The notes below the pieces were generated by a model. It worked only from the letters and a program-made list of their open reading frames with translations, did no database searches and was not told the DNA's origin. Positions 7,758-61,422 of a stretch of DNA of 64,000 bases are shown piece after piece (position 1 is the first letter of the stretch; each line of letters opens with the position of its first letter). The DNA is from Dendrophyllia cribrosa (lineage: Eukaryota > Cnidaria > Anthozoa > Scleractinia > Dendrophylliidae). The position numbers were made by a program, and so were the translations under genes. Location of the stretch: positions 23,993,770 to 24,057,769 of the forward strand of contig JAJLRJ010000006.1 of NCBI GenBank assembly GCA_024195265.1. Direction: 5' to 3'.

Positions 7758-7830
7758 CTGACAGTAGCTCAGTGGTTAGAGCATCCGACTAGTGTACGGA
7801 AGGTCGTGGATTTGAATCTCATCTTGAACT
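7758..7830 (+). pseudogene. tRNA-Thr-like sequence (AGT loop), degenerate
   Basis: The D-arm GCTCAGTGGTTAGAGC is canonical and the anticodon-like loop CTAGTGT would read AGT (Thr). The acceptor arms do not pair well, and the T-arm (GTGGA/CTCAT around TTTGAAT) is broken. I read it as a tRNA pseudogene or the head of an old tRNA-derived SINE, not a working tRNA gene. Confidence 0.45.
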
Positions 7831-28784: not shown

Positions 28785-30060
28785 GAGAAAATAACGCCTA
28801 AAAAGTCAAAATTCTACACGAATGGCAATTCTGATTTCTTGACCGCCTGTCACGAAATCAGATTTGATGAATTGTAATCCACTTCAATCCGTGTAATCCT
28901 GCACTTTACCTCCAAACTACTGCTTCTGTTTTGCTCTATAGAATCATTTTTCCGATTTAGTTGTATATCTGGTGGCATTTGGCGAAACATGGAAATAAGC
29001 TAAGCGAAATTTTGTTATTTTAGTGGAACACTGTCCCTTTAAACTCCCTACAACAGTCACCTCTCCATAATGGCAAAGGCCAGCAAATTGCACCCACAAC
29101 CCCAAAAATAACCTCTCCATAATGGCCTCACAATCCAACAATTGAAGAACTGTGTAAAATACTTTTTGCTGAGTACAAAGTCATGCCGAGACTTGATAAA
29201 CATGTCTGCAAATGTTCAAGGAAATGTTTAGGCAAAGAATTGCTATTCATGGAACATTCAAGAAAATATATTTAAAAATTGACAACCAGTACTCAGTAGA
29301 GCCCACCATCATGCTTCTCTGCTAACAACAAAATTCTGAAAAAAGGGAAAAAGTTCTTAAACCCACCGTCCCTGTCCCCGTTTATATACTTGACATGTCC
29401 GCGGCCAATTTGTCACTCGATCAGAAGAAGTTAAGTAGCCTGCGAGCAAGCTCTCGGGCTCGAGCCCGAGAGCTTACTTGCAGGCTAAAAGTTAAGCGGT
29501 GACTATCGATCTTACGATCTCAATTTGTAAAGTACCTAAAATAACAAAATCGGCATTGGCATGCAAAAGTAATGTTAGTTGGCATAAAGCGAACAGTGGA
29601 TTCAACAACAATTATCGCGTAGGTTCGTTTATAACAATGCAACCTCGTCCCTGCGGCTTTTTTGCGTTCAAAATGGCGGCATGAAGAATGATCCGAATAC
29701 TCTATTTTTTACCAAAGGCCGGCGAAATCTCGCTTGGAGTTTCTCTCGACCTCTCCCTGAAGTTTCCTCTAAGATTTGTTAACTGACTATATATCATTGT
29801 GTGTTTGCCAACAGCCTGTCAGTGTCCACTTCTTCTACTCTTTCTGGCGTGCGAGAAACTGAACATAACAATACTGAATACAACTAATCACAACATGGAA
29901 GTCCTTTGTCGCGAATGTGCCAAAATACAGACTACTACACAGTCGGTGACCCTTTCGAAAGGCAGAGGATGCTTTTGCAACGCACGTTTGATGTGAAGTT
30001 AAAATAACAACTTGACAATAAACCTAACAGTTCTGTGTTCTTTTTGGCTCGGACTCTTAC
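28785..30060. other. Intron or intergenic sequence
   Basis: No exon recognised apart from the short palindrome listed separately. If the Pro-rich and ISG12 exons belong together, this is part of their shared intron. An open frame at 29799-29996 has no family resemblance. Confidence 0.5.
29437..29486. repeat. 50-bp near-perfect palindrome
   Basis: AGCCTGCGAGCAAGCTCTCG is followed by GGCTCGAGCC and the inverted partner CGAGAGCTTACTTGCAGGCT. Only a base or two mismatch in the arms. It would form a long stem with a tiny loop. Confidence 0.8.
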
Positions 30061-30547
30061 CACTGGTGGTCCATGGTGGGGCATCTCCAACATTAACACG
30101 TTGGTGAGCTGGTTCCTCTGCTTCCTGTGGTTTGTCTGGTTCCCCTGCTTCCTGTGGTTTGTTTGGTTTTCCCGATTCCTGCGGTTTGACTGGTTCCCCT
30201 GGTTTGTCTGGTTTGTCTGTTTTCCCTAGGTCCTGTGGTTTGTCTGGTTCCTCGCTGAGTTTGTCTGATTCCCGTGGTTTGTCTGATTCCCGTGGTTTGT
30301 CTGGTTCCCCTGGTTTGTCTGGTTTGTCTGGTTCCCCTGGTTCCTGTGGTTTGTCTGGTTTCCCTGGTTCCTGTGGTTTGTCTGGTTCCCCCGGTTCCCC
30401 CGGTTCCCCTGGTTTGTCCGGTTCCCCTGGTTCCTGTGGTTTATCTGGTTTCTCTGGTTCCTGTGGTTTGTCTGGTTCTCCTGGTCCCTGTGGTTTGCTT
30501 GGTTCCTCTAGTTTGTCTGGTTTGTCTGGTTTCTCCCATTTGTCGTC
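30061..30547 (-). CDS. Pro/Glu/Lys-rich repeat exon (PDKPQEPGEP type), internal
   Basis: Open on the minus strand for 162 codons plus one base, from a strong acceptor (TTTTTTGTTGCACAG) to a donor (GTAAGAG). The product is almost wholly degenerate repeats of P-[DEG]-K-P-[QG]-E-P-G-E, starting DDKWEKPDKPDK and ending VNVGDAPPWTTSG. Low-complexity, charged, probably extended and disordered. It enters in phase 0 and exits in phase 1, which matches the acceptor phase of the ISG12 exon at 26907. It also matches the phase-0 end of the exon at 45568. There is no Met near the start, so it is internal. Plus-strand open frames here are shadows. Confidence 0.75.
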
Positions 30548-30549
30548 CT

Positions 30550-32641
30550 GTGCAACAAAAAACCTAGAATATGTAACTGAATATCACTCTAACTAAAACT
30601 AGACATTTAGAAACAAACCCCTGGTTTGATAATTCAGCCCAAGAAATTCAATAATTTTGGAAAGCAGCAACAGAAGCTTAAAGGTAGTTTTCATAATTTG
30701 TTTTCACTTATACTCCTATTCAAGATCCTGGTAAATTTTTTAAATGTGATTGGCTAAAAAAACGTATTTTAGGCCAATTTGAAATACCTTCATGTACAAA
30801 TTACAGTATTGAAATAGCCTTGTCCTGTTTTTGAAACAATGGTGGAACGATTTCTCGAATTTGATTACAATGAAAGGCAACGACTAAAAACACGAAAAAA
30901 CGTACGAAGACGGTTGAAATGAACTGAAAGCAAGGAATGCAGTGCAACTATTTCGATCTATGACGCAAGACAAATTGACGAGAAACTGGAGACGTTCTTC
31001 ACCAAAGTTATAAAAAATGGACGGAAGGACAGCTCTGACTACGTGCCAGACAGTTCATTATAATTAATGCTCGCGTCCTTCGACGTCATTTAAAATTGAA
31101 GACAGACGTCACAGAATTAAAAATAAAATGGAAATTAAATATTTCATGGGAAAGCTTGCTTACTCCGTGGGCAAGGTTACGGCAAGCGGCCTCACGCGTA
31201 AGCGAATGATACACAGTTCATCGTGAACAATGTTGCAACTTGTTGATTGACTGAGGTCGTTCAACAATGGTGAAAATGGTGGTGGTGGTGAAAACTCTTG
31301 TACCCTTTCTGTACCCTTTCTGTACCCTGTACTATCATTTGTCTGCGAATGATCACAACAGTAAACACGGTTATCTAGTTACGTTTTTATATGTGAACAA
31401 GGATTTGCAAAAACAGCCTCGAATAATAAATTTCTTGGATGTTAAACATGGCGTTATAGAAATATACCAGTTCCCGAAATCTTAACAATCCCCGTCCGAG
31501 TTCTAAAGTTTATTACTGCGGAGGAAGTAATTGGTCAGTTAAATTAAGACATTATTCAAACGATAAAACAAAGTGAATTTACTTACACGGAGACGAACCA
31601 AACGTAAAATCGTTTTCAGAGGAAACCTTTGCTTCCGAAAAAAGCTAACAAAGCTTTAGGACTGCCATACGGCCTTATGGTGAATTCGCGCTTCGTCCGT
31701 AAAGCTATTTCATTCTAACATTTTGTTCTTGATTTCCTTATCCATTAGGACTTCAACACGGTCAAAGTGTGTAATTCATTATTTATTCCACACATGCGCA
31801 GTTTAGACCTAATACTACCGCAGGAGACCTGGAACTAACTAGTATCTTAGCAACCAAATGCAGACATTCCTCCTGACTCATCCAGTTTCTTTCCGTCGAT
31901 CAAAACCTGTTTTGAATCAGCGAAAACGAAACATGCGAACGAGAATGGCTTTCGAAAACTTTGAACCTGACTGTAAAGCAGAAGCGTTAGCGATCGATGA
32001 TTATGGAGTTTGGTGTGTCTGCGCCGTTGTTCCTTCAACCTGAGAGGCAGTGATGGTTTCATTTAATGGCTGGAGTTCCGAGTGAAATCGAAGGATCGAA
32101 GATGAGCGCGAGATTCGCAAAGAAACGATCGCAGTAAAAGATGGCGTCAAAAGAAAACGCTCAACCTTTCGAGCAAAAATATTGAATGAAGCTTGTTTAT
32201 AGTTCCTGCTCCAGTGATAAATAAATTATATCTCTTGAGTAAACGCCATGGTTTATAAAATGCTACAATGCAACTTCAGCCTTCCAGAAATTTATTCAAA
32301 TAATAAACACAGAAACATGACAATACGCATCACTGATCACTTGATCGACCATGGCCGGGCCCGGCTCAGGATACCAAAACGAAATAAAACCAGTCGATTT
32401 ACACCACTCGCATGGAATTGTCTTAATGTTAAAGTCTTTCCGAATATATTTCGCTTTGAAATGGTAAACTTTTGTGCAAGGACGGCTCGCTTTCTACTTG
32501 TAAACAAAGAGCTCAAATTACGGCAAGAGCTTAAAATTTGCATAACATCCTACACGAACGAGATGTGATCAGATCTCTCTGAATTGTGAAGATTACAACA
32601 TCCATCTTTTGACCTCTGAATGAAAAGAATCGTACTTGTAT
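30550..32641. other. No gene recognised
   Basis: AT-rich sequence up to the MULE target site. It would be intronic if the GT4 and ISG12 exons form one gene. A 30-bp segment (ACTTCAACACGGTCAAAGTG..., 31750-31779) has an inverted partner at 42490-42519 beyond the MULE. Confidence 0.45.
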
Positions 32642-32650
32642 TAAAAATAT

Positions 32651-32860
32651 CGCATTGGCTATTCGTACGGCACCGGTATGGGGACTTCGATTTGCTATTC
32701 GTACGGGAGTATTCTTTGACGCGAAACGAGTAACGCAGTAACGAGTAACGAGTAACGGAGTAACGGGAAAACGAGTAACGGCAAAAATATTCGAGGGGTA
32801 AATAAAATAAAACGAGTAACGGGAAAAAAAAAAAAAGGTATAAAATAATAAGAATAAAAT
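32651..32860 (+). repeat. Left inverted repeat of the MULE with GAGTAACG array
   Basis: Holds a doubled GCTATTCGTACGG word (about 32659 and 32694), then seven or so AACGAGTAACG-type units, then AAATATTCGAGGGGTAAATA and another unit, ending in an A-rich tract. All of it recurs inverted in the right arm. The array is a likely set of transposase-binding sites (inference). The transposase start codon lies about 140 bases further in. Confidence 0.8.
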
Positions 32861-32999
32861 AATAATAAGAATAATAATAAAAATATTATTTTAATACGAT
32901 CGTTTGAAAAATGTTTAGTAAATTTAAAAAATGCGAAAGAAAAAAGGCTTGGCGAGGAGGAATCGCGCCAAAATGTCACGTGTCAGGTCAATTTACAAC

Positions 33000-35900
33000 A
33001 TGGCGGCAAAAGAACGAAAGAAAGGTGAGTACGACACTTTTCTCCTTTGTGTCAGTCTTTTCTCGGAGAAAACAGTAGTTTTGTTTGATCAGGGACTAGA
33101 ATTGTGAAAGCGACAAACGATGGTTCGATCCGTTCGGTTAAATAGCGAGAAAACAAAGCAATCAAAGCACTTGTTACGAACAGCGAAACACTGCAATGTT
33201 GCTATTGTCCGAGTATTGAAGGATGAGTTGAGATTTCTTTTTGATGTTAGCATTATTCTTCCTTAAAAAACAGGGCCTGGCGTAGAAGTGATCATATTAG
33301 ACAGCTCCAGTTCTGAAGATGAAGGTAATGAAGGCGTTAATGTTTGTGAAAGTCGAGGAACATGACCCTGCATGGATCGAAAATCAGATGGATTTGCTAA
33401 ATATTATCAATGTTTCCCGTCCAGGTTCAAATCCAGGAAAGTCTTCCTCTGCCTCTAGATGGATTTGTGTTCGATGGCCCCGAATTCAACTCCTCTACTC
33501 TTTGTAAATAGCCAACTAGTCTTCCTCCTGTCAGTTGCGATTTTTAACAAGTTTCTGTTGATTTGCAATATTTGTTTCCCTTCAGTATTTACAGTGTCCC
33601 TTTTATAATAGCAGCAGTGCTAAATACAAACAGTGATTTATTTATTTATTCCAGTATTGTTTTAGTCTTGATTCATTCTTGAGAGACACATATTTTATTA
33701 TCTGATTTACTTTAAGTAAGTTTAAGGCTCTCCATTACTACAAGTAAAAAAAAAAACAAAACATTTGTATGTCTATGACGAGCAACCTTGAAATCGCGAT
33801 GCCATCGTTTGCGTGACATTCCAGCGTGTTGGAATGGCGGGCAGAATATTATTTACCCCTTCAATGGTCTGCTAGATATTTTATGCTGCTTTGTAACATT
33901 TTTTCTTTCTTATTGCCAAAATAGAATTTTTATTGCATTTAATTTGTGCTACATGCAAATTTTTGGTTCTGACAAGCACTTGCAAGGCATTGAAATGCTT
34001 GCAGCCATTTTATGTTTAAATGGTCAGACTCTTATAACCGCCCGGGCATCTATTTCTTTTTAGGGTGGATGAACAAAATGTTTCTTTTATCCCAGTTATC
34101 AATATATATATATTTTTAATTTGTTAGGGCTGAACCAAAATATAATGAAATGAAATTGGCACACAAGAAGTGCAGTACATTTTTTTAATTTTCATTCTGT
34201 CCACCCATCTTTTTTAGTCTTTCGAGAATTTTGCCGTATGCCTAAATTATTTACCCATACAAATCATTACATTGGAGGCATATTATTTCTTTTCAGAGCA
34301 ACATTTTCGACAAAGTATTGACAAGCTAGCAGAGGATCTAAGTCAATTAGAGAGCCCCAAAAAGAAGAAAAAACTGAGCACACTGTAAGTTATTTTTGAC
34401 ATCTTATATATGGAGCCACGGTGGTCTACTGGTTAGTGCGTCGGACTTTCAACCTGAAGGTCGGTGGTTCGAGCCTGGTCTCTGCCGTCGTGTCGTTTCC
34501 TTAGACAAGAAACTTTACTCCACACTGTCTCTCTCCACCCAGGTGTATAAATGGGTACCGGCGACGAAATGCTGGGGGTAACCCTGCGATGGACTAGCAT
34601 CCCATCCAGGGGGGAGTAGCAATATTCCTAGTCGCTTCATGCTACTGAAACCGGGTTTAAGCTCCGGCCGTTGTGAGCCTTCTGGCTCGTGTGCGCGACT
34701 TTACTTTACTTATATAAAAACAAATAAAAGAAAAATGTGATTCCATTTTATTGTTTTGCTGTATTAAGAAGAAAATGACTATTATTTAATTTTAAATATT
34801 TTAAATCTCCAGTCCTTTGATTAGAATATCACTTTTGTGCTTTTGTTATTTGGAACCTAATGGACCAGAACAATACTGTGGTATTCACACCCCAAGCCCC
34901 ACACCCACCCAACAAAATTTGCATTTTGCCATTAATGTGGAACATTAGGTTAGACCAAAATGTCTAGACTTCTTCAATTTCCTAACCAGCATCCCATCCA
35001 ATTTCACATGGAATTCAAATTCCCTCTATGATTTGATTGCTTTCCCAACCTTTATCAAATTTTAGTGACTCAAACTTTTTTTCTAATCATCAGGAGTAAG
35101 AAGGAGGATGATAGTGAGAAGGAGGATGATAAGTATAAAGACATAAGGTTAGTTATCCGTGGAGGTGGTAACAGCTGGGCTCATGATCAACCTAGTTCCC
35201 AGGACTTTTCTCTTTACGTCCTTGGAATGAGGTTGGGCTTGTGATTTTCTATAACAAATTAGTTAGCTAGGGAAGAGATGATGTATTGTTTGAGCAGAAC
35301 TTTTGTATACTTCTAAAGTGTTTGAAGAAATACATCTATAGCAATTCATGAAAATGTTTTGTAAAGACTTAATGATTTTTTTCAGACATCTTTCCCACGA
35401 CCCATTAGTTGGGGTTAGGTTGGGGTGTGTTTGGGTGGTGGTGGTGGTGGTGGGGGGGGGGGGGGGGGTTGGGTCTGGGGGCAGGTTAGTTATCCCTGAA
35501 ATTCAAGGCGGGAATTTATCCCTTATCTCTTAAAAAACAACGATTATTATTTTTCATCCCTTAAACTCTCTGTATCTATTCTCTATCCCTGTAATGTTTA
35601 TCCCCTTCAAATTGAAAGCTCAGACTTTGAATAACAGTAAACACAACAATTCATTCTCACATATTACGTCAGATTTAGCAAAACTGGAAGAAGAAAGGCG
35701 AGCGAAGCACTATTACATCCAAACTCCGAGATTAATTCCAAGAGGAAAGAAATACCACAATGCGAAAGAAATTCCGGGAAAAATTACATAAACATTTCTT
35801 AACACACACACGAGCGCGCCCTAAGCTAGGATTGGCTGTTCACTAAAGTTCACTTGTTCACTTGCAAATGGTCTCTGTGGAGGGGGATTCAGTTTCAACA

Positions 35901-38900
35901 AAAACAAAATGCGAGCAATAAGACTGCAAAAACCTAAATCTATTTTGCCAGTTATCCCTAAAACAGGATATCTTCCTCTCCGCCTCCGCCCCAACACGGT
36001 CAAACATTCACACAACTCTTGTTTTAATATCTTACAGTAGCAGTGACGACGAAAGTGAAATAGCGAGGTAGGTTTCAATATATAAGCAGTTATTTTTTGT
36101 GCATCAGGACATAATGTTTCAGCAGTGACAAGTGTTGAATATAGGATGTTTGTGAATCAAGCCAAAACAACCGGATTTTGAACCAATTTTTCTCTTGCAT
36201 TTTAGGAAAGATACTCCGAAATTGATGTTTGGTGAATGCCCAGTGTTCGTGAGAGGGAAAACCGAAAAGTACTCGTTTGATGACGTAATGAAAATTTTGC
36301 TAGACGAGCACCATCAAGACTTATTATGTCAGAAGCAACCCATGCGATGTCAGAAGGATATGACGTTCCTCATCGACATATCTAAAGTCAAATTACAGGA
36401 CCTTCCTTGCGATGACAATGGCAGCTATTTTGGAAGTGGCTCACACACGTGGACGTACAAAGCAGTGGAAGATCCCAGAGGTGTGGAATTCGAGAGCCGA
36501 AAACGAGAAAAAGCTGAAGGCAACACAAAGCGAATCTATCTGCGAAGAATCTACCGAACATGCAAAATTCATCAACGGCATTCCTCCCAACCAACAAAAG
36601 TACAAAGGAAGAAATCAAAGAAGAAGCCAGGAAGTCCAAACCCAAAAAGGTAATTTTGAAGTTATCGAAAGAGAAAGATCTACTCAATGCAAGTAGTTCA
36701 GCTGAAACACCACGGGATAACAAACAAGTTTACAACTTTAAGCACAGCGAACGTTTGAAGGGTACCGATGTTCAAAGCAGAAAAGATGAGATTTATGCAA
36801 TTATGCTTCAGGCAGCAGGGGAAGAAGAGGAGGGAGAGGAGCCATTTGTACACAGCATCGCATCGTGGCCAGAACCCATGTGTATTCTTGGCTTCCAGTC
36901 GCAATTTCATGATATTGCACGGTTCTGTACTGACCCCAGTATTCATGGTCTTTTGACGATAGACACCACCTTTAATCTTGGAAGCTTTTATGTAACTCCG
37001 ACAAGTTACAGAAACCTCCATTTGGAAAGTACCAGGGCTGGCAATACTCCGCTATTCATTGGACCAACCCTAGTGCACATGACACGCTCATATGCAGCGT
37101 ATTCTCATTTGCTTGCCAAGCTGAAAGAGTTGGAGCCAGATATTGATGACGTTCAGGCAACAATGAATGACGGGGAGCCCGGCTCTAATGAAGGCATTGG
37201 ATACATTCTTAAGGAACAGCACTAAACTGCGGTGTCTGGGACACTTTCGCAAGAACGTAAAGGATGAACTCTCTGCACTTGGCATTCGAGGCGACCAACA
37301 AAAGTACTTCCTGGATAAGGTGTTTGGCTTTGTGTGTGGAGATGTTAGAGTTGAAGGCCTTCTTGACGCTAGAGATGAGGAAGAATTTGACTCTCTTCTT
37401 TTGGCGTGCAAACGTGAGATGACGGAGACAGAATATCAAATATGCCCTCATGCAGAACCATCTTTTCACAACTGGCTTCAGAAACATGGACATATCATGA
37501 AGAAATCAATGATCCTGGGCGTGCGAATTGAAGCAGGGCTAGACAGAAATGACAGCTGCACTTCCAACGATGCCGAGAGCAATAACCATGTCCTTAAAAG
37601 TGCTGCCGATCACGAGGAGATGTCTGCCGTTGAATTCATTAGTTTAGCTAAGTCAGTAGCCCTTAACCAGCGCCAGGAAGTTACCAGAGCTATCCTGAAG
37701 AAGGGGGGATTACCGATTTAAGAGCGAATATTCCAGTTTGGAAATGGAAGAGAGCAAGTGGTTCATGATGTCAAAAGAACAGCGAACGAGGCATCTACAA
37801 AAAGTTCTTCAGACACCAGTCAAGACGAAGCAGTCAAAGGAATCTGGACCTTCGTTGTCTGTCTCTTCCTTGTCAGCAAAATTGGAAAAACCGCAAACAT
37901 TGCTTCATTGCATTTGGGCAAAGGCACACCAACTTCTTACCACAAGTGGAAGCATTTCGCAGTTACCATCTGATGCCCAATCTGATGAGCAGTCCACTCT
38001 TACACCGAAGCGCTTCACTGTACACAGCGAATCCAAGCCAGATTCTCCAAATGTTGTGAAGCTATTTGCAGATGGGTCGATGGAGTGCCCTTGCATCATG
38101 TTCAAGTCAAGCTCAAAGATTTGCTCCCATTCGGTTGCTGTCGCTGAAAAGGAAAATGTCCTTGCCATTTATCTTGACTGGGTGCGCACATCAGAAAGTA
38201 ATTGCAGCATCTATAACTTGTCCACTAAAAATATCAATGTCCGAGCTGCAGGCCAAAAAGGAGGCAAAGAGAGGAGAAAGAAATCTGGCACAAAGAACAC
38301 TCCAACATACACGATTACAAATCGGGAGCAGCTGGCATTTGGTACAGGGCCGTCATCGCAGTTTCAGCCAAATGTTTCAAGGCTATCAGCAGGATCAAAC
38401 TCGGCCACATCACAATTTCAGCCAAGAGAGTTTGGGCGGCCGTCACCAATGACTATGGGCTCGTCAGTTTTTCAGGGAAGTAGTCTAGCCACACAGTCAG
38501 TATCCATTTCCTGTGGTCCATCCTTTGCCACCGTCACACCACAACCACAGTTCAATCATCTGTATGCCACACCACAACCGCCTGTACAGCCAGTAAATGT
38601 GCGTCAGTCATGCCAATCGAGTCCATTCTACCAGTACAGACCACCACCATGGCAAAACTCCAAATTGTTCACTGTGATGAACATAAACGGGCGAATAAAA
38701 AAGTGTGTTGGATGCCGAAGGGAGTTTGCAGACCCCATGGGACCAGTTTTCACGGGTCTCGTTATTCAACATTTGGAACGTGATTTCTACCCGGATAAAG
38801 ATGGCGCCCGCCGTATCAGCAGCGAACAAGCCCGCTACTACCATCCACAATTAAGTTGCATCCAGGCGAGGCATCCCGATTTTCACCCAAGATTGTTAAA

Positions 38901-38991
38901 ACTTCATGCTGATCTTTTGATCGACAGTCTGCAAGCACAGCACCTGCTTCACCATCTGGGTATCCAGGTTGGCCCTTCAAATGGAAATTGA
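33000..38991 (+). CDS. MULE transposase, six exons, three single-base frame breaks
   Basis: Exons by GT-AG sites: 33000-33024 (MAAKERKK), 33274-33324, 34297-34384, 35094-35147, 36038-36067 and 36206-38991; phases agree throughout. Exons 2-5 encode an acidic Ser/Asp/Glu and Lys-rich leader. Exon 6 carries an N-terminal domain (KDTPKLMFGECPVFVRGK, HTWTYKAVEDPRG), then the DDE core: Asp in TIDTTFNLGSFY, Asp in MNDGEP, CLGHFRKN, and Glu in SNDAESNNHVLK. After it comes a SWIM zinc finger (CPC...CSH) and a Ser/Pro/Gln-rich tail with C-x2-C. The frame shifts at A5 (36644-36648), near CCC (37178-37180) and G6 (37703-37708), each by one base, with no stop codon otherwise. So it is either a very young pseudogene or an intact gene with sequence errors. 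Confidence 0.85.
34411..34708 (+). mobile_element. tRNA-derived SINE inside intron 3 of the MULE gene
   Basis: The head GGTGGTCTACTGGTTAGTGC, loop CTTTCAA and box B GGTTCGAGCC are tRNA-like (closest to Glu, loop TTC). The body contains GGTGTATAAATGGGTACC and GATGGACTAGCATCCCATCC and ends TTTACTTTA. It is flanked by CTTATATA (34403-34410 and 34709-34716), an 8-bp duplication. Being inside the MULE, it is the younger insertion. Confidence 0.85.
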
Positions 38992-38999
38992 CTAACATG

Positions 39000-40140
39000 A
39001 GGAACTTAATGTCTGATGACATTAGTATGAAGGTTTTTGAAACTTGTTTTTACCTAGTAAATGGATTTTGCGTCACCGTTGTTGATCTAGAGCTATTTAT
39101 AATAATGTCTGCATTTAAATTTTTGTCAATATCCCGTCAGAGAAAAAAAGGGGGGATGCATGCAAAAATTAATTGTTAATGGCAGCCAAAAAGAGCTCAC
39201 AAGGGTATTAGTGAGAATAAGAAATAATGACCGCAAAACATGGATTTGGGAAACAGGAAATTTGAGTTTATACTGAGTGACTGTACTTTATCTTCCTGTA
39301 CATTGCTCAATCAAACAACTACGTTAACACAACTTTAAAAGAATCGTTGCATGCGCTACGCACATTTAGGAAACTTGTTATTGTCAGTTTTATAAGCAGC
39401 TAGCATTCACCTAGTTCAGTTGGACAGGGGGACAAGAATAGCCTCATTTTGTTATGTGACTGATTTTTTCACAATCGAGAAAACCCCACCACAACTGTAT
39501 TTAAAAGAATTGAATGGGTCACATCACCAAGTTACAAAGGGGTGTTCTTTCGTTTATATTTAAATTTGCAAGCTTATTTATTGTTACGTTTTAAGATGTT
39601 TTCCTTTTACTATACTTGAATCGAAGCAACTCGCCAAATTTCGATTCTCCTGCATCTTGGTCCAATATGACTCAGGGAATTGAAAAAAAGAGATTTTGTT
39701 GCCTTGGAACCAAAGTAGTCTTTTGAAATCAGTGTGGAATGAGGAATGACGTATTCAAATAGATTAACTATCAACCTCAGCCAATAGTATTTCAGTGGAC
39801 TAAGATACCGTGCTTTAGGATTTTCAGTATTCATATTCATTATGTTGGCAGTGTTAATAATTTCAAGTATTCATATTCTTTGTTGTTAAGTTTTGAATAT
39901 TTTAGCCAGCAAACAGAAGCTTCAGTTCCTAGCTTTATAAGCAGACACTTATATTCCAGCAAAATCCAAAACATGGGGTGCACTGGGCTTGTCCATTTCA
40001 ATTGTCCAAGATTATAGCGGCTAAATCATTTAAACTGGACAAGTTATTCACAGTTCCTTTCTAAAAATGTTATTTTGAGTTAGAAATGAGGAAAATACCA
40101 ATTTTTTTTTTGGTTTAACGAAATCACATAAAGTACTAGT
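39000..40140. other. MULE interior, no gene recognised
   Basis: AT-rich sequence following the transposase stop. It probably holds the 3' untranslated region, but I cannot assign a single polyadenylation site. No recognisable domain on either strand. Confidence 0.45.
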
Positions 40141-40435
40141 TAGGGGCTGACAATTTAACTTTTGAGGGGGGGGGGGGGGGGGGGGGTGTGGATGTGGATG
40201 ATTTTTGGTGAGCAAGTTATTTTTTTCTGGCAACCTGGTGGGCAGGATACTTTTTTCCTCCGAAATGCACTACAGAATATTTTTTCCTTTGCAGCATTAA
40301 TTTTTCTTGTATGCAGCAGTGCAAGAATTTTGTTCTACCTTTTTCCTGCTGCATTCAATTTTTTCCCACAACAAGCCCTTGCAGGAATTTGTTTTTCAAA
40401 ATCCCCCCCTCAAAAGTTAAATGGTTGGCCCCTTA
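40141..40435. mobile_element. MITE nested in the MULE
   Basis: Inverted ends TAGGGGCTGACAATTTAAC and GTTAAATGGTTGGCCCCTTA both continue into TTTTGAGGGG / CCCCTCAAAA. The left one runs into a G tract of about 20. The interior is TTTTT-rich and non-coding. Target duplication is short (TA or TTA) and not certain. Confidence 0.6.
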
Positions 40436-40881
40436 CGTAAAACAATTTGGGTAAACAAATAGTTCAATGATTTTACCGCAAGGCAAAGGTGTTGCCTTCA
40501 GGTTTATGTTCCTCGCGTTGTGTTGTTGAGTGTTATTGCTTGTTTATGAGTAAAGGGGAAAACCCAGTATAACTGCCAACCTTAAGGCCTTATTAGCTGT
40601 CGCAACTCTAGAAGTGTTCACAGAGCAGCTATAATAACTTTTATGTCTTCCCTCTTCTTTTTAAAAACAAGTCATAAAGCCGAGCGCTGCATTCCCGCGC
40701 TCTGTTTGCTGGGCAAAATAGGGTAACAACACAAACAATGAAATGGTGTAAATGGCTATGAGCAAAAGGCCCATAGCCGATTTAATTTTTGTTAAGAATT
40801 TCAAGTATTTGTGGCTATGGGGAAGGCCAATAGCCACTTAATTACAAACACTGAAATAACTTAATCCTTAATTCACAAATA

Positions 40882-41301
40882 ATGATTTGGCCCAGTAAAG
40901 GTGAGGGCAACAAAAACGAAGCTAAGATAAAACAGATTAAAACAAGCGGCAGGGCCACGGGGAGGCGGTGGGAAATTCAAAGGGCAGAGGTCTTAATTCA
41001 AGCGAATGATAAATTCCGAGCACGCGTGCCGTGGCATACACAGCGTCAGTACAGGGTGGTCAATGATTTAATTGCACAGACCCTGGCCCGTGACCCCAAC
41101 GACGTGACATACTATGTCACGCAACAGTCTTATCAGATTGAAGACATAAAAATCCTATTTGAATTGCTTCAAATATTCCCTGTTTTTTGCTTTAATTTTG
41201 CAAGTAAGCCACACGATGTTTCTTTTTTATATATAAACTGGGTAATTTTCCCTTATCTAATGAAATTAATTTACTGCCTTTACTGGAAAAGTTTGTTTTG
41301 A
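40882..41301 (+). CDS. Hypothetical second open frame of the MULE
   Basis: A 139-codon open frame starts at ATG 40882. The first 90 residues have a protein-like, basic composition (KTSGRATGRRWEIQRAEVLI, RVPWHTQRQYRVVNDLIAQT), then turn hydrophobic, as if reading into an intron. No family recognised. It lies inside the MULE, on the same strand as the transposase and about 1.9 kb after it. It could be an accessory protein, a captured host exon or chance. Confidence 0.3.
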   Translation: MIWPSKGEGNKNEAKIKQIKTSGRATGRRWEIQRAEVLIQANDKFRARVPWHTQRQYRVVNDLIAQTLARDPNDVTYYVTQQSYQIEDIKILFELLQIFPVFCFNFASKPHDVSFLYINWVIFPYLMKLIYCLYWKSLF

Positions 41302-41949
41302 CTGCTAAGGTACCACCATACTTGAAAACAGGCCCTAAATATCATAAGTAGCTCATACGTTGTGGTTTTTATTAACCGAGAAGTGACTGTGTAACACCAG
41401 GCCTAATTTCTGTAATTTGTTTGATTTATGCACAGGTGGCGTTCTGTTTCATGTTTAGGCTAGCCTTTATTATTGTTAATGTTCGATAATGTTGACGATT
41501 ATGCACGGTTTAATTTAACTATCCCGTTTACATAATCATAAGGACAAGAATAAATTTCGGTTACTCACTGTTGTGTCTCAGAAAATGTGGTTTTGTGGTC
41601 TCTGCATGCCAACGGCTCTTGTCATACGGGACTCCCCGGAGATACATTTACAATCATAACCTGCACCTACCTCCATGATCGTAGATGTATATATATGTAT
41701 ATAGTTCTGGAGATTAAAGCCGTGCGATGTTCCTAATAAGTTCGTAAGACCATAGACAATGGTCCGGACAAAGGTAAAATTACAGAATTACGACTTGTGA
41801 GCCCGAGGTTTAATGAGTCAGCAGTACAACAAATAGAGAAAAACACTTTGTGCAAACTGTCACATGCCGTCTTCGAAAAGCTCAAGCAAAATGCGCTATA
41901 AAACGGTAATGTCAATTTACTGCCCCTTTACTTAAATTTCTTAAATTTA

Positions 41950-42329
41950 ACATTCTTATTATTTTATACCTTTTATTTTTTTTCTCGTTACTCGTTTTAT
42001 TTTATTTACCCCTCGAATATTTTTGCCGTTACTCGTTTTCCCGTTACTCCGTTACTCGTTACTGCGTTACTCGTTTTAGTAACACCCGACGCGAAATATT
42101 TCTAAGTGTCACGATGAGTCGCTCGCGTGAGTATACAGAGACTCAGCAAATTTATAGTCTGAGCCAATTCAACATCGCTTACCAGAATCGCTTCGTAAAG
42201 CTAAACGAACTTTAATATTGTGGACCAACAAAAGTGAAGAATAACATCGAAAATTGTCGAAAGTTTTGGACTCCCGTACGAATAGCAAATCGAAGTCCGC
42301 GTACGGGTGCCGTACGAATAGCCACTTCG
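41950..42329 (-). repeat. Right inverted repeat of the MULE with CGTTACTC array
   Basis: Mirror image of the left arm: TATACCTTTTATTTT, CGTTACTCGTTTTATTTTAT, the CGTTACTC array to about 42078, then about 170 unmatched bases, then CTCCCGTACGAATAGCAAAT and the terminal GGTGCCGTACGAATAGCCA. Confidence 0.8.
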
Positions 42330-42797
42330 TAAAAATATATGTCAGCTTCAGATTATCGAAACCTCAAGAAACCGGTTTTCCTTTACGGCCAGCATTTGAG
42401 ACCCTCAATTGGATGTGACGTAAAAAACGTCAACCGTTACTAGGAAACAAGGCTCATAAATATGTACGAACCCCACTCAAGTGGGGTTCGCATAATTACA
42501 CACTTTGACCGTGTGGAAGTCGTCATGATTTGTGTAGTATATGGATTTGAGTTGTTCTAAAAAAACAGCTTTTGTTGACATAATGATTTGATGAAACTTT
42601 AATGCGTTTTGTAATTATTGAATTTAACTTGAGTGAGTTTATTGTTTAAGTAACGCATGTAATTGGTTGCTTTGTTTATTTTTCCGAGGTGCTAATTTTT
42701 CATGCAAATTTAGTTCAGCGTTCGTCTTTGGCACAATAATAAGATACCACAACAAAAATGTATTGTGTTATTAAGTCTAACGGTCACTTAATATATA

Positions 42798-42913
42798 CCT
42801 CCGCACTTTAATGAGAATCCTCCGCTTTCTCCGCCCGCATCCTCCGCACTTTAACGAGAATCCTCCGCTTTCTCCGGCCGCATCCTCCGCACTTTAACGA
42901 GAATCCTCCGCAA
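42798..42913. repeat. 43-bp minisatellite, 2.6 copies
   Basis: The unit CCTCCGCACTTTAACGAGAA-TCCTCCGCTTTCTCCGCCCGCAT repeats with one or two substitutions per copy. It starts about 470 bp outside the right end of the MULE. Confidence 0.8.
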
Positions 42914-43309
42914 AAAAGTGGAAGCTGCTGTGCCTATCCTACTACTCATGCGCGTACGACGTGCTTGGTTTTCGTCTTATCGTTGCAATAACACACATTT
43001 AAAATATGTGCTCATTTCGAATTCATAAACAAAACTCTGAAAACTGCTTGTCAGCTTCGCCTGAGCTCAGATGCGGAGCAGCTTATAATAACAACAATTA
43101 TTTCTCCAATTGAAAGTCCTTCTAAGCAAAGAACAATCGATGCAACAGTATTGCATTATCTTGAAATTCATGTGGAAGGAGTTTAACATCAAACTGCTGG
43201 ATAATTTTCGAAAAATGATGGAAAACGCAGCATTGGAGATTTGAGCAGGTTTTGGAGCATTTTACAAAACTTACAGAACTAGTGAATACTTTTTAACGGT
43301 TCGATGATT

Positions 43310-55079: not shown

Positions 55080-56981
55080 AATAAAGATGAATTGCTGGAG
55101 TCGGACTAGTTCAAAAACATTTAATCGCTACTCGGAGTTTCATGCTTCTAATGAAGCAATCATCAGGCAACTGACAACAATAACGGTTACATGTAAAGAT
55201 ATACAAATTTGAAAATGGGGGCAATGTTTACTAGCGTGACATGCCAAGATGTAATTGGACGGCAAAAGCGCTAAACGATCAGGTAAATCTATATTAGGTA
55301 AACGCGGTATTTAACAGGAATTTCTTAGAATGTCTACAGATCGATGTCAGTTCGTTTCTATGATTAAGTGTCGACATTTCCGGCTTACAAATTATAAAAT
55401 ATTTCTCCCAAAGGCAAAGATTACATTTTTTGTTGACATTTGAATACGACCTAGCATGCTTTACTTTTCTCCACTTAATTTGATAATTGATTTTCCGTTC
55501 CTTTAGACTCCATATGTACTTGCTAAGCTCGGTTACATTTTTGTACCGTTCGTTCCTGAAAGAACATGTGTGGTTATTGTAGCGTTCCTTAAATGTCGTG
55601 TCTCACAGTCCGATGTATGTTTGTTTTGTCTGTGGAGTCGCGACCTCTGCTTGATAGACAATGTTCCGGTCATTACAATTTCCTTCAAGTGGGCAAGAAT
55701 TTTTGTTTCGGCAATTACAGTTGTTATCAATTTCTTCTGATTGATTTGATGGTTTGCTAATCTGGGCTTTGTTGTGACTGGAGATAATGGTTTTAATGTT
55801 GCTCATACAGCTGTAGCTCAGCTTAAGCGTGTTCCGGTTAAAGATTTTGTGCAGCAAGTTGGATTTAGGGAAATGTTGATCAATTAGTTGGAGGAAGCAT
55901 TTACCGACTTTCGTTTCTACATTTTGGCTGTATGGCGGGTTGAACCACGTGATGTTTCTTTGACGGTTTTTGCTCTTTCGTGATGCATCAGGGGTTGGCG
56001 CTTTGTATGACAGGTTGTACTTGTAGCCACTTTTATTAAGTGCATCTTGGTACGCACCTTTGGCCTCGTCAAAGCATTCCTTGTCAGATGAAATTTCCGA
56101 AAGACGCTTGTTGATGGATTCGGGAATGTTCCTTAGAATAGAAGGTGGGTGGTTAGATTGCTTGTGTACGTACAGTGGTGTGTTTCCTTCTTTTGTGTAT
56201 GGGAAGTGCTTTCCGCTTTTTAGGTCGAGTGTGACATCTAAAAAATCGACTTTGGTTAGGTTGGCCTCTACTGTGATCTTTAGATCATTATCACGGAAAA
56301 TTTTGCAGATACCTTTCTTAATTCTTTCGATCTCTTGTGGCGTTTTATTGAATGCTGACAGCCCGTCATCGCGATAAAGACCGATGCTATTTCCGTACTT
56401 TTCGGTGAGGCGTGATAAGATGTAGCAACCAACCAGCTCACATGTTTCTGCGCCATCAAACGACCCCATGGTGACATCGAATCGGTCGTTGGAGGTCTTC
56501 TTCTCCCATGGGACGTTTTCGCTGAACAGCAGTGACCTTTTAGCGTGGATAATTATGTCTCGTTCATGTGCGCTGATGGGTCGGTAACTATTGGCGAAAT
56601 CCAGCGCTTTGCAGAGTAGCTTCTCGGTTATTGACGGGTAAAAATCGCACACGTCAAAACATATAAAAGATAGCGATTCTTTGTGTTGCAAGCCGTTAAA
56701 CCATTTGAGAACACTGGATGTGTTTTTCCATTGATTGATCTTCGTTTTATTGATGATGGTCGTGTTGATGTCATCAAGGATGTGTTTACTTATCACGCCG
56801 ATTTCAGATTTGGATGGATTGATTAAGCGGCAGGTCGGGTGGTCATGGAATGCAGGTTTGTGATCTTTTTTTTTTTTTTTCTTTCGGCTAGTTTTTCAAT
56901 GCGGTCGTCTAGTTTGAGATGTTCAGCTATTCTTGCAGACTGTGCATTCAACTTTTCTACAACTTTGCCACTTGATTTTTG
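55080..56981 (-). mobile_element. Penelope-like retroelement, longer copy
   Basis: The minus-strand copy reads from about 56981 down to 55080. It forms one arm of an inverted pair with 56982-58242; the shared part is 55080-56342. It contains a reverse-transcriptase frame followed by a GIY-YIG-like region. RT plus GIY-YIG is the hallmark of Penelope-like elements. A run of about 17 A (56867-56883 on the minus strand) breaks the frame upstream of the RT core. The 5' part of the element is missing. Confidence 0.7.
55294..56796 (-). pseudogene. Reverse transcriptase / GIY-YIG polyprotein, 5' truncated, in-frame TGA
   Basis: An open frame of 397 codons (56796-55603) has RT motifs: [19 protein letters not shown] (motif A with catalytic Asp), [19 protein letters not shown], and GLYRDDGLS (motif C, with two Asp). 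The frame is open upstream of the Met to the poly-A run ([14 protein letters not shown]). After the RT come Cys-rich residues ([15 protein letters not shown]), then TYIGL, a TGA, and in the same frame [15 protein letters not shown] to a TAA at 55294. The TGA thus cuts the GIY-YIG nuclease. The duplicate copy has the same TGA. Confidence 0.7.
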
Positions 56982-58235
56982 CCACAAGAGATCGAACGAA
57001 TTAAGAAAGGTATCTGCAAAATTTTCCGTGATAATGATCTAAAGATCACAGTAGAGGCCAACCTAACCAAAGTCGATTTTTTAGATGTCACACTCGACCT
57101 AAAAAGCGGAAAGCACTTCCCATACACAAAAGAAGGAAACACACCACTGTACGTACACAAGCAATCTAACCACCCACCTTCTATTCTAAGGAACATTCCC
57201 GAATCCATCAACAAGCGTCTTTCGGAAATTTCATCTGACAAGGAATGCTTTGACGAGGCCAAAGGTGCGTACCAAGATGCACTTAATAAAAGTGGCTACA
57301 AGTACAACCTGTCATACAAAGCGCCAACCCCTGATGCATCACGAAAGAGCAAAAACCGTCAAAGAAACATCACGTGGTTCAACCCGCCATACAGCCAAAA
57401 TGTAGAAACGAAAGTCGGTAAATGCTTCCTCCAACTAATTGATCAACATTTCCCTAAATCCAACTTGCTGCACAAAATCTTTAACCGGAACACGCTTAAG
57501 CTGAGCTACAGCTGTATGAGCAACATTAAAACCATTATCTCCAGTCACAACAAAGCCCAGATTAGCAAACCATCAAATCAATCAGAAGAAATTGATAACA
57601 ACTGTAATTGCCGAAACAAAAATTCTTGCCCACTTGAAGGAAATTGTAATGACCGGAACATTGTCTATCAAGCAGAGGTCGCGACTCCACAGACAAAACA
57701 AACATACATCGGACTGTGAGACACGACATTTAAGGAACGCTACAATAACCACACATGTTCTTTCAGGAACGAACGGTACAAAAATGTAACCGAGCTTAGC
57801 AAGTACATATGGAGTCTAAAGGAACGGAAAATCAATTATCAAATTAAGTGGAGAAAAGTAAAGCATGCTAGGTCGTATTCAAATGTCAACAAAAAATGTA
57901 ATCTTTGCCTTTGGGAGAAATATTTTATAATTTGTAAGCCGGAAATGTCGACACTTAATCATAGAAACGAACTGACATCGATCTGTAGACATTCTAAGAA
58001 ATTCCTGTTAAATACCGCGTTTACCTAATATAGATTTACCTGATCGTTTAGCGCTTTTGCCGTCCAATTACATCTTGGCATGTCACGCTAGTAAGCATTG
58101 CCCCCATTTTCAAATTTGTATATCTTTACATGTAACCGTAATTGTTGTCAGTTGCCTGATGATTGCTTCATTAGAAGCATGAAACTCCGAGTAGCGATTA
58201 AATGTTTTTGAACTAGTCCGACTCCAGCAATTCAT

Positions 58236-61239: not shown

Positions 61240-61422
61240 TAACTCTGTGTGTAAAATATAGTACTAAGGTCAACCCATAAATTTCCCTGCACTGAGCGTT
61301 AGCCTCAGTAAGGAAATGAGGGACCACACGAGGAAAAGAAAAAATCTTTGACCTCGGTGGGATTCGAACCCACGACCTCCGAATCAGATCTTCCGTCGCT
61401 CTACCGCTTGAACCACGAGGCC
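61240..61422 (-). mobile_element. tRNA-derived SINE with an almost complete tRNA head
   Basis: The first 73 bases on the minus strand (61422-61350) fold like a tRNA: acceptor GGCCTCG pairs with CGAGGTC, D-arm GTTC/GAGC, T-arm GTGGG-TTCGAAT-CCCAC. The anticodon stem (CGGAA/TTCGG) has a mismatch and the loop GATCTGA lacks the U33 that tRNAs need. The sequence continues without a terminator into AAAGATTTTTTCTTTTCCTC and about 110 more bases, so it is read as a SINE and not a working tRNA gene. Confidence 0.6.

Follow-up and report, generated by a model that had tools for sequence, protein, structure and literature searches.

A 9.4-kb Mutator-like element that lacks one tip and an intact transposase gene, nested in an older 1.4-kb repeat of Dendrophyllia cribrosa

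The window analysed here, a stretch of 64,000 nucleotides from contig JAJLRJ010000006.1 of the anthozoan Dendrophyllia cribrosa, contains a Mutator-like element (MULE) of 9.4 kb. One end of the element is clipped, the transposase gene is broken, and the whole is nested in an older repeat of 1.4 kb. An initial annotation had described a complete Mutator-like transposon at 32651-42329. The Mutator-like character stood, but the element is smaller than these coordinates and is not complete, as it has lost the left tip and has no intact transposase frame. The parts of the two nested repeats are as follows.

31743-32726, plus strand: host repeat, left part, split by the MULE; its 34-bp inverted end is at 31743-31776
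32642-32650, plus strand: TAAAAATAT, first copy, part of the host repeat
32651-32717, plus strand: left half of the palindromic part (about 305 bp) of the host repeat
32718-32726, plus strand: GACGCGAAA, left copy of the 9-bp target duplication of the MULE; its AAA is common to the clipped MULE end
32724-42087, plus strand: MULE copy of 9364 bp, left tip gone
32724-32855, plus strand: left terminal repeat with tandem units of the GAGTAACG type (143 bp in sisters with a whole tip)
41952-42087, minus strand: right terminal repeat, tip whole and read on that strand as GGGTGTTACTA
42088-42096, plus strand: GACGCGAAA, right copy of the target duplication
42088-42527, plus strand: host repeat, right part; its 34-bp inverted end matches the left one at 31 of 34 positions
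42097-42329, plus strand: right half of the palindromic part of the host repeat
42330-42338, plus strand: TAAAAATAT, second copy, part of the host repeat

The boundaries of the MULE were located by searching the genome (627 Mb in 22 contigs) with window positions 32650-33250; 40 of 547 candidates were scored, so the match counts are lower bounds. The matches form two classes that meet at query positions 75-77 (window 32724-32726). Matches of the inner class start at query position 75 (window 32724) and come from at least nine other long copies, at least eight of which match to query position 601 at 95-97% identity and one to position 277. The outer class consists of query positions 1-77 alone and was found at 20 or more places; none of these 20 carries a MULE tip, and in 19 of them the reverse arm follows within about 310 bp, which leaves no room for a MULE. 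The initial annotation had proposed a search with the terminal ends as a check, and it is the inner ends to which the nine sisters correspond. An exact scan for the tip GGGTGTTACTAAAACNAGTAACG, with the reversed sequence as control, gave 18 genomic places, nine on each strand, all at the ends of the window copy and its nine sisters; the reversed control had no exact occurrence in the 627-Mb genome. This true tip lies inside 32651-42329, and the window copy extends from 32724 to 42087. Two ends do not carry GGGTGTTACTAAAACNAGTAACG exactly: the one on the left of the window copy, and the one on the right of L013, which differs by an indel. The sisters (L009-L017) start with GGGTGTTACTA followed by AAACGAGTAACG, replaced in L011 by AAACCAGTAACG. 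The left tip of the window copy was likely lost when the 14 bases separating two AAA triplets were deleted.

The ends have the long terminal inverted repeats expected of a MULE. Inverted arms of 112 nt at 32744-32855 and 41952-42063 are 98% identical, and the alignment of the two terminal repeats covers 143-144 positions in each of the nine sisters (95-99% identity) and 125 positions in the window copy (96.8%). The inverted termini noticed in the initial annotation are real, as are the GAGTAACG arrays, but the arms belong to two different repeats: the inner pair to the MULE, and an outer pair of 60 nt (32651-32710 and 42270-42329, 92%) to the host repeat. A complete autonomous MULE has both tips and an open spliced frame, and the window copy does not have this combination.

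The flanks of the MULE (31743-32726 and 42088-42527) recur jointly in all nine 10-kb loci that were compared, with a common left edge at 31743 (31742 in one of the nine). In 29 of 34 distinct related loci the insertion site is unbroken when two mismatches are allowed, and in 26 it is exactly so. The exact 9-bp pair TAAAAATAT, which the initial annotation took for the duplication made by the element, is present on either side of 32651-42329. Among the 34 related loci, with a few mismatches allowed, it was found on the left in 30 (one of these matches, in L054, looks spurious), on the right in 29 and on both sides in 27, and because both copies stand in 27 of the 34 loci the pair is a property of the host repeat and was not made by the MULE. 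TAAAAATAT and the outer arms thus neither delimit nor date the MULE. The outer palindrome was also followed in 20 further loci, 15 of them readable (three were not oriented and two had no tip); the right-hand side carries TAAAAATAT in 13 of the 15 and a variant in two. We considered whether the palindrome is an independently moving miniature element and set this aside, as no copy with plainly independent flanks was found among those loci; the right flanks of L026 and L063 differ from those of the other palindrome loci. No clear target duplication was seen around the host repeat in the copies shown. A 43-bp unit in three tandem copies (42798-42926) lies beside the host repeat.

The transposase gene and its predicted protein features, together with a dispersed repeat in the third intron, are placed as follows.

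33000-33024, plus strand: exon 1
33274-33324, plus strand: exon 2
34297-34384, plus strand: exon 3
34411-34708, minus strand: dispersed repeat within intron 3, present in all four long sisters, 96% match in L034
35094-35147, plus strand: exon 4
36038-36067, plus strand: exon 5
36206-38991, plus strand: exon 6, broken
36959-36973, plus strand: IDTTF, first predicted catalytic D, invariant in eight relatives
37166-37180, plus strand: NDGEP, second predicted catalytic D
37566-37586, plus strand: NDAESNN, predicted catalytic E
38086-38130, plus strand: SWIM-type CxC...CxH, a weak match in the window (E 0.12)
38698-38877, plus strand: C-terminal CxxC / YYHxxxxCIxxRH domain, predicted to bind metal

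Exons 1 to 5 and the start of exon 6 lie in one frame, separated by GT..AG introns in phases 1, 1, 2, 2 and 2. The structure of a six-exon gene with phase-consistent introns, as first annotated, was therefore confirmed, but the frame is not intact. Exon 6 is readable as four pieces: relative to all four long sisters it has a 139-nt deletion at 36566/36567, and there are two more frame changes, one within 37167-37225 and one within 37699-37721. The spliced window frame ends after 231 residues. Spliced frames of three long sisters reach 717, 1056 and 240 residues and the fourth could not be spliced, so that one of the four, with 1056 residues, is open through all six exons and four of the five long copies (the window copy, L009, L011 and L016) have broken frames. 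Three of the four long sisters keep the GT..AG exon borders; in L016 exon 4 is not recognisable and one acceptor is missing. The repeat in intron 3 had no match in Rfam and resembles, by eye, a short interspersed nuclear element of tRNA origin. Exon 2 encodes VEVIILDSSSSEDE, which we take to resemble a SUMO-interacting motif.

Protein searches returned eight relatives at E 0.001 or better among 6855 candidates. Residues D316, D385, C406, H409 and E521 (P0004 numbering) are invariant in all eight, and the same residues occur in the window protein, giving the D-D-E order that characterises MULEs, in which C..H stands after the second D and before the E. The invariant D, D and E are presumably the catalytic residues, and the spliced protein is predicted from its sequence to be a DDE transposase. 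The Pfam MULE family was matched by seven of the eight relatives (E 4.9e-6 to 0.13), all under the curated cut-off, and the precomputed database domains for P0004 include PF10551. P0001 matches SWIM and the prokaryotic Mutator family without Pfam MULE. A SWIM finger follows the catalytic core in many, not all, MULEs; it is found here in that place, and it scores above its cut-off in P0003, P0004, L070 and L073. The D-D-E order and the SWIM-type finger of the first description were thus both borne out.

The C-terminal CxxC / YYHxxxxCIxxRH domain is common to the window protein, P0002 (49% identity) and L076, a transposase of the same genome (27%). It occurs in 55 genomic stretches; the ten copies of this family account for eight, and many of the remainder lie at or near transposases related to P0001. 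No Pfam family covers this domain of the window protein at E 1, no convincing relative was found among solved structures (best E 0.7), and a protein search with the domain returned only the query itself among 15 candidates. When P0001 was searched against the genome (69 of 217 candidates scored), at least 93 stretches were matched. Among the transposases recovered, such as L070, L073 and L076, one group shows 52-53% identity with P0001 and other groups about 30-36%. Related transposases with open frames of 951-952 residues are carried by at least 14 loci, L076 among them, and in 13 of the 14 the match region has no stop; this family (G000) is possibly younger or more active than the MULE family of the window.

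The MULE family comprises ten copies, the window copy and L009-L017, on seven contigs and with different flanks. Nine of the ten differ by 1-15 substitutions in 1,647-1,680 columns, a comparison that excludes L017, in which most of the compared stretch is missing. Six of the nine sisters (L009, L010, L013, L014, L015 and L016) have an exact 9-bp target duplication of their own and L012 has an exact one of 10 bp, within the 8-11 bp, usually 9, that is expected of MULEs. One internal deletion (33565/37842) is shared by L012-L015, each of which has a different exact duplication. The sisters are near-identical with duplications of their own, and four sites have the same internal deletion; recent movement of the family is therefore likely. 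Recent mobility had been proposed in the initial annotation from the perfect TAAAAATAT pair; that argument fails, and the proposal now rests on the sisters. The simplest reading of four loci that share one deletion but have different duplications is that the deletion derivatives were likely moved in trans by a full copy. In such a scheme the predicted DDE transposase would bind the tandem-repeat-rich 143-bp terminal repeats, excise the element and reinsert it with a 9-bp stagger, and the enzyme of a full copy would also move internally deleted versions.

Several copies differ in their interiors. L014 and L015 have a common 1637-bp insert (99.6% alike) with a signal-peptide-like frame that suggested capture of a host gene, as in Pack-MULEs. 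A peptide search with this frame gave no match, the insert is a dispersed repeat with sharp ends, and capture was rejected: no fragment of a captured non-transposon gene was found in it, and no other capture was shown. The window copy, L009, L010 and L016 carry a 540-bp segment (window 40641-41180) that L011-L015 do not have. The 2444-bp interior of L017 is not MULE sequence, and by eye its minus strand looks reverse transcriptase-like.

We hold with high confidence that the window contains a MULE at 32724-42087, inserted between two 9-bp copies in a repeat at 31743-42527, whose self-driven movement has probably ended; with its left tip gone and its transposase frame broken, this copy is probably immobile by its own enzyme. 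The alternative is one complete MULE at 32651-42329 that made the TAAAAATAT duplication itself and has the GAGTAACG arrays for subterminal repeats; in its favour are the 9-bp pair and the inverted arms on either side of that interval. The same outer ends, with the same flanks and TAAAAATAT, occur without a MULE at many loci, however, and in the nine sisters both ends lie at the inner tip, next to duplications of their own; together with the broken frame, this leaves the single element virtually no credence, and we regard it as ruled out on the evidence of the unbroken sites and of the ends of the sisters. A nested insertion of this kind can be mistaken for a single complete element when, as here, it is the older host repeat that supplies the most conspicuous duplication and termini. 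Certain observations do weigh against the nested, recently mobile MULE that we favour. In five of the 34 related loci the unbroken insertion site was not seen with two mismatches allowed; among the nine sisters examined, the duplication of L011 is imperfect (8 of 9 positions) and L017 has none at its ends. The two small frame changes in exon 6 could be assembly errors. The family's own protein (that of the open sister, and the window piece) has no match to Pfam MULE (PF10551), the open sister protein matches neither Pfam MULE nor SWIM, and the best MULE score of any relative, 27.3 bits, is just below the curated cut-off of 27.6.

These low scores, under the cut-off in every protein tested, and the N- and C-terminal parts that match no Pfam family would fit a transposase from a separate DDE superfamily, MULE-like merely in its ends and 9-bp stagger. 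Against this, MULE was matched in seven of eight relatives alongside the prokaryotic Mutator family and SWIM, L076 spans almost all of the MULE profile (positions 1-97 of 99, E 1.3e-4), and long terminal repeats with tandem units and duplications of 8-9 bp are also features of Muta1 (PMC5225508); we consider a separate superfamily very unlikely. That the family is long dead, with gene conversion or a recent segmental duplication, not recent transposition, behind the similarity of its copies, would agree with the broken frames in four of five long copies, but the distribution over seven contigs with differing flanks and the exact own duplications in seven of nine sisters make this improbable, if somewhat less so. 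Beyond the nested MULE itself, we can only tentatively propose, at rather short of even confidence, a still-mobile and likely anthozoan MULE with ten copies, an open six-exon transposase of 1056 residues, derivatives moved in trans, and membership of a large MULE clade of this genome with a zinc-like C-terminal domain, CxxC / YYHxxxxCIxxRH, that is not listed in Pfam. With copies so alike, a frame that is open in one of them and an unbroken site that is precisely defined, mobility would be directly testable.

Other features lie elsewhere in the window. Open frames on opposite strands (55603-56895, minus; 56976-57719, plus) encode the same stretch of about 247 residues as an inverted duplication; by eye they look reverse transcriptase-like, with a GIY-YIG-like end, and Penelope-like. 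A tRNA-Arg gene with anticodon TCT is found on the minus strand at 61349-61422 by both Rfam and ARAGORN, and a tRNA-like Rfam match of 33.1 bits at 7763-7824 (plus strand) was not called by ARAGORN. A tandem array at 30057-30562 has 9- and 27-base spacing, and the minus-strand frame over it (29999-30583) encodes PDKPQEPGK-like repeats.

Among known proteins, ACROYT_G029718 (P0002), a hypothetical protein of Oculina patagonica, which we take to be a stony coral, is 44% identical over 77% of the query and has the same catalytic positions, a SWIM-type finger and the C-terminal CxxC / YYHxxxxC domain; it is longer, at 1214 residues. Within the same genome, L076 has the same C-terminal domain as the window protein. 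No published account of this MULE family was found by title or abstract start; Repbase lay outside the search, and an entry there is possible. The family described here is a young one in an animal, and its superfamily is called rare (median 0) in a survey of 100 animal genomes; the same survey reports no Pack-MULE in reference genomes and one Pack-MULE family in fly populations (PMC8277862). Pack-MULEs are also treated in PMC6431247, and one was suggested in Nematostella for an insertion flanked by MULEs (PMC9842752). The term MULE-MuDR occurs once in the Porites harrisoni coral genome paper (PMC13040556). MULE groups of cnidarians were described by Dupeyron et al. (2019) as the Ghost sub-group Cnidaria (terminal inverted repeat of 177 bp) and MuDR-6_HM (PMC6446971), and the likeness to these, by description, is that they are MULEs of cnidarians. 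Known counterparts also include Muta1 and Muta5 of Aedes aegypti (PMC5225508). The three exons predicted for Muta5 contradict the initial impression that an intron-rich design is unusual among animal MULEs. Compared by description, Muta1 and Muta5 resemble the present family in their terminal repeats of 145-151 bp with a short tip and tandem units, their 8-9 bp duplications and their many deletion derivatives, and differ from it in size, being 3.2-3.5 kb against up to 9.5 kb and six exons here.

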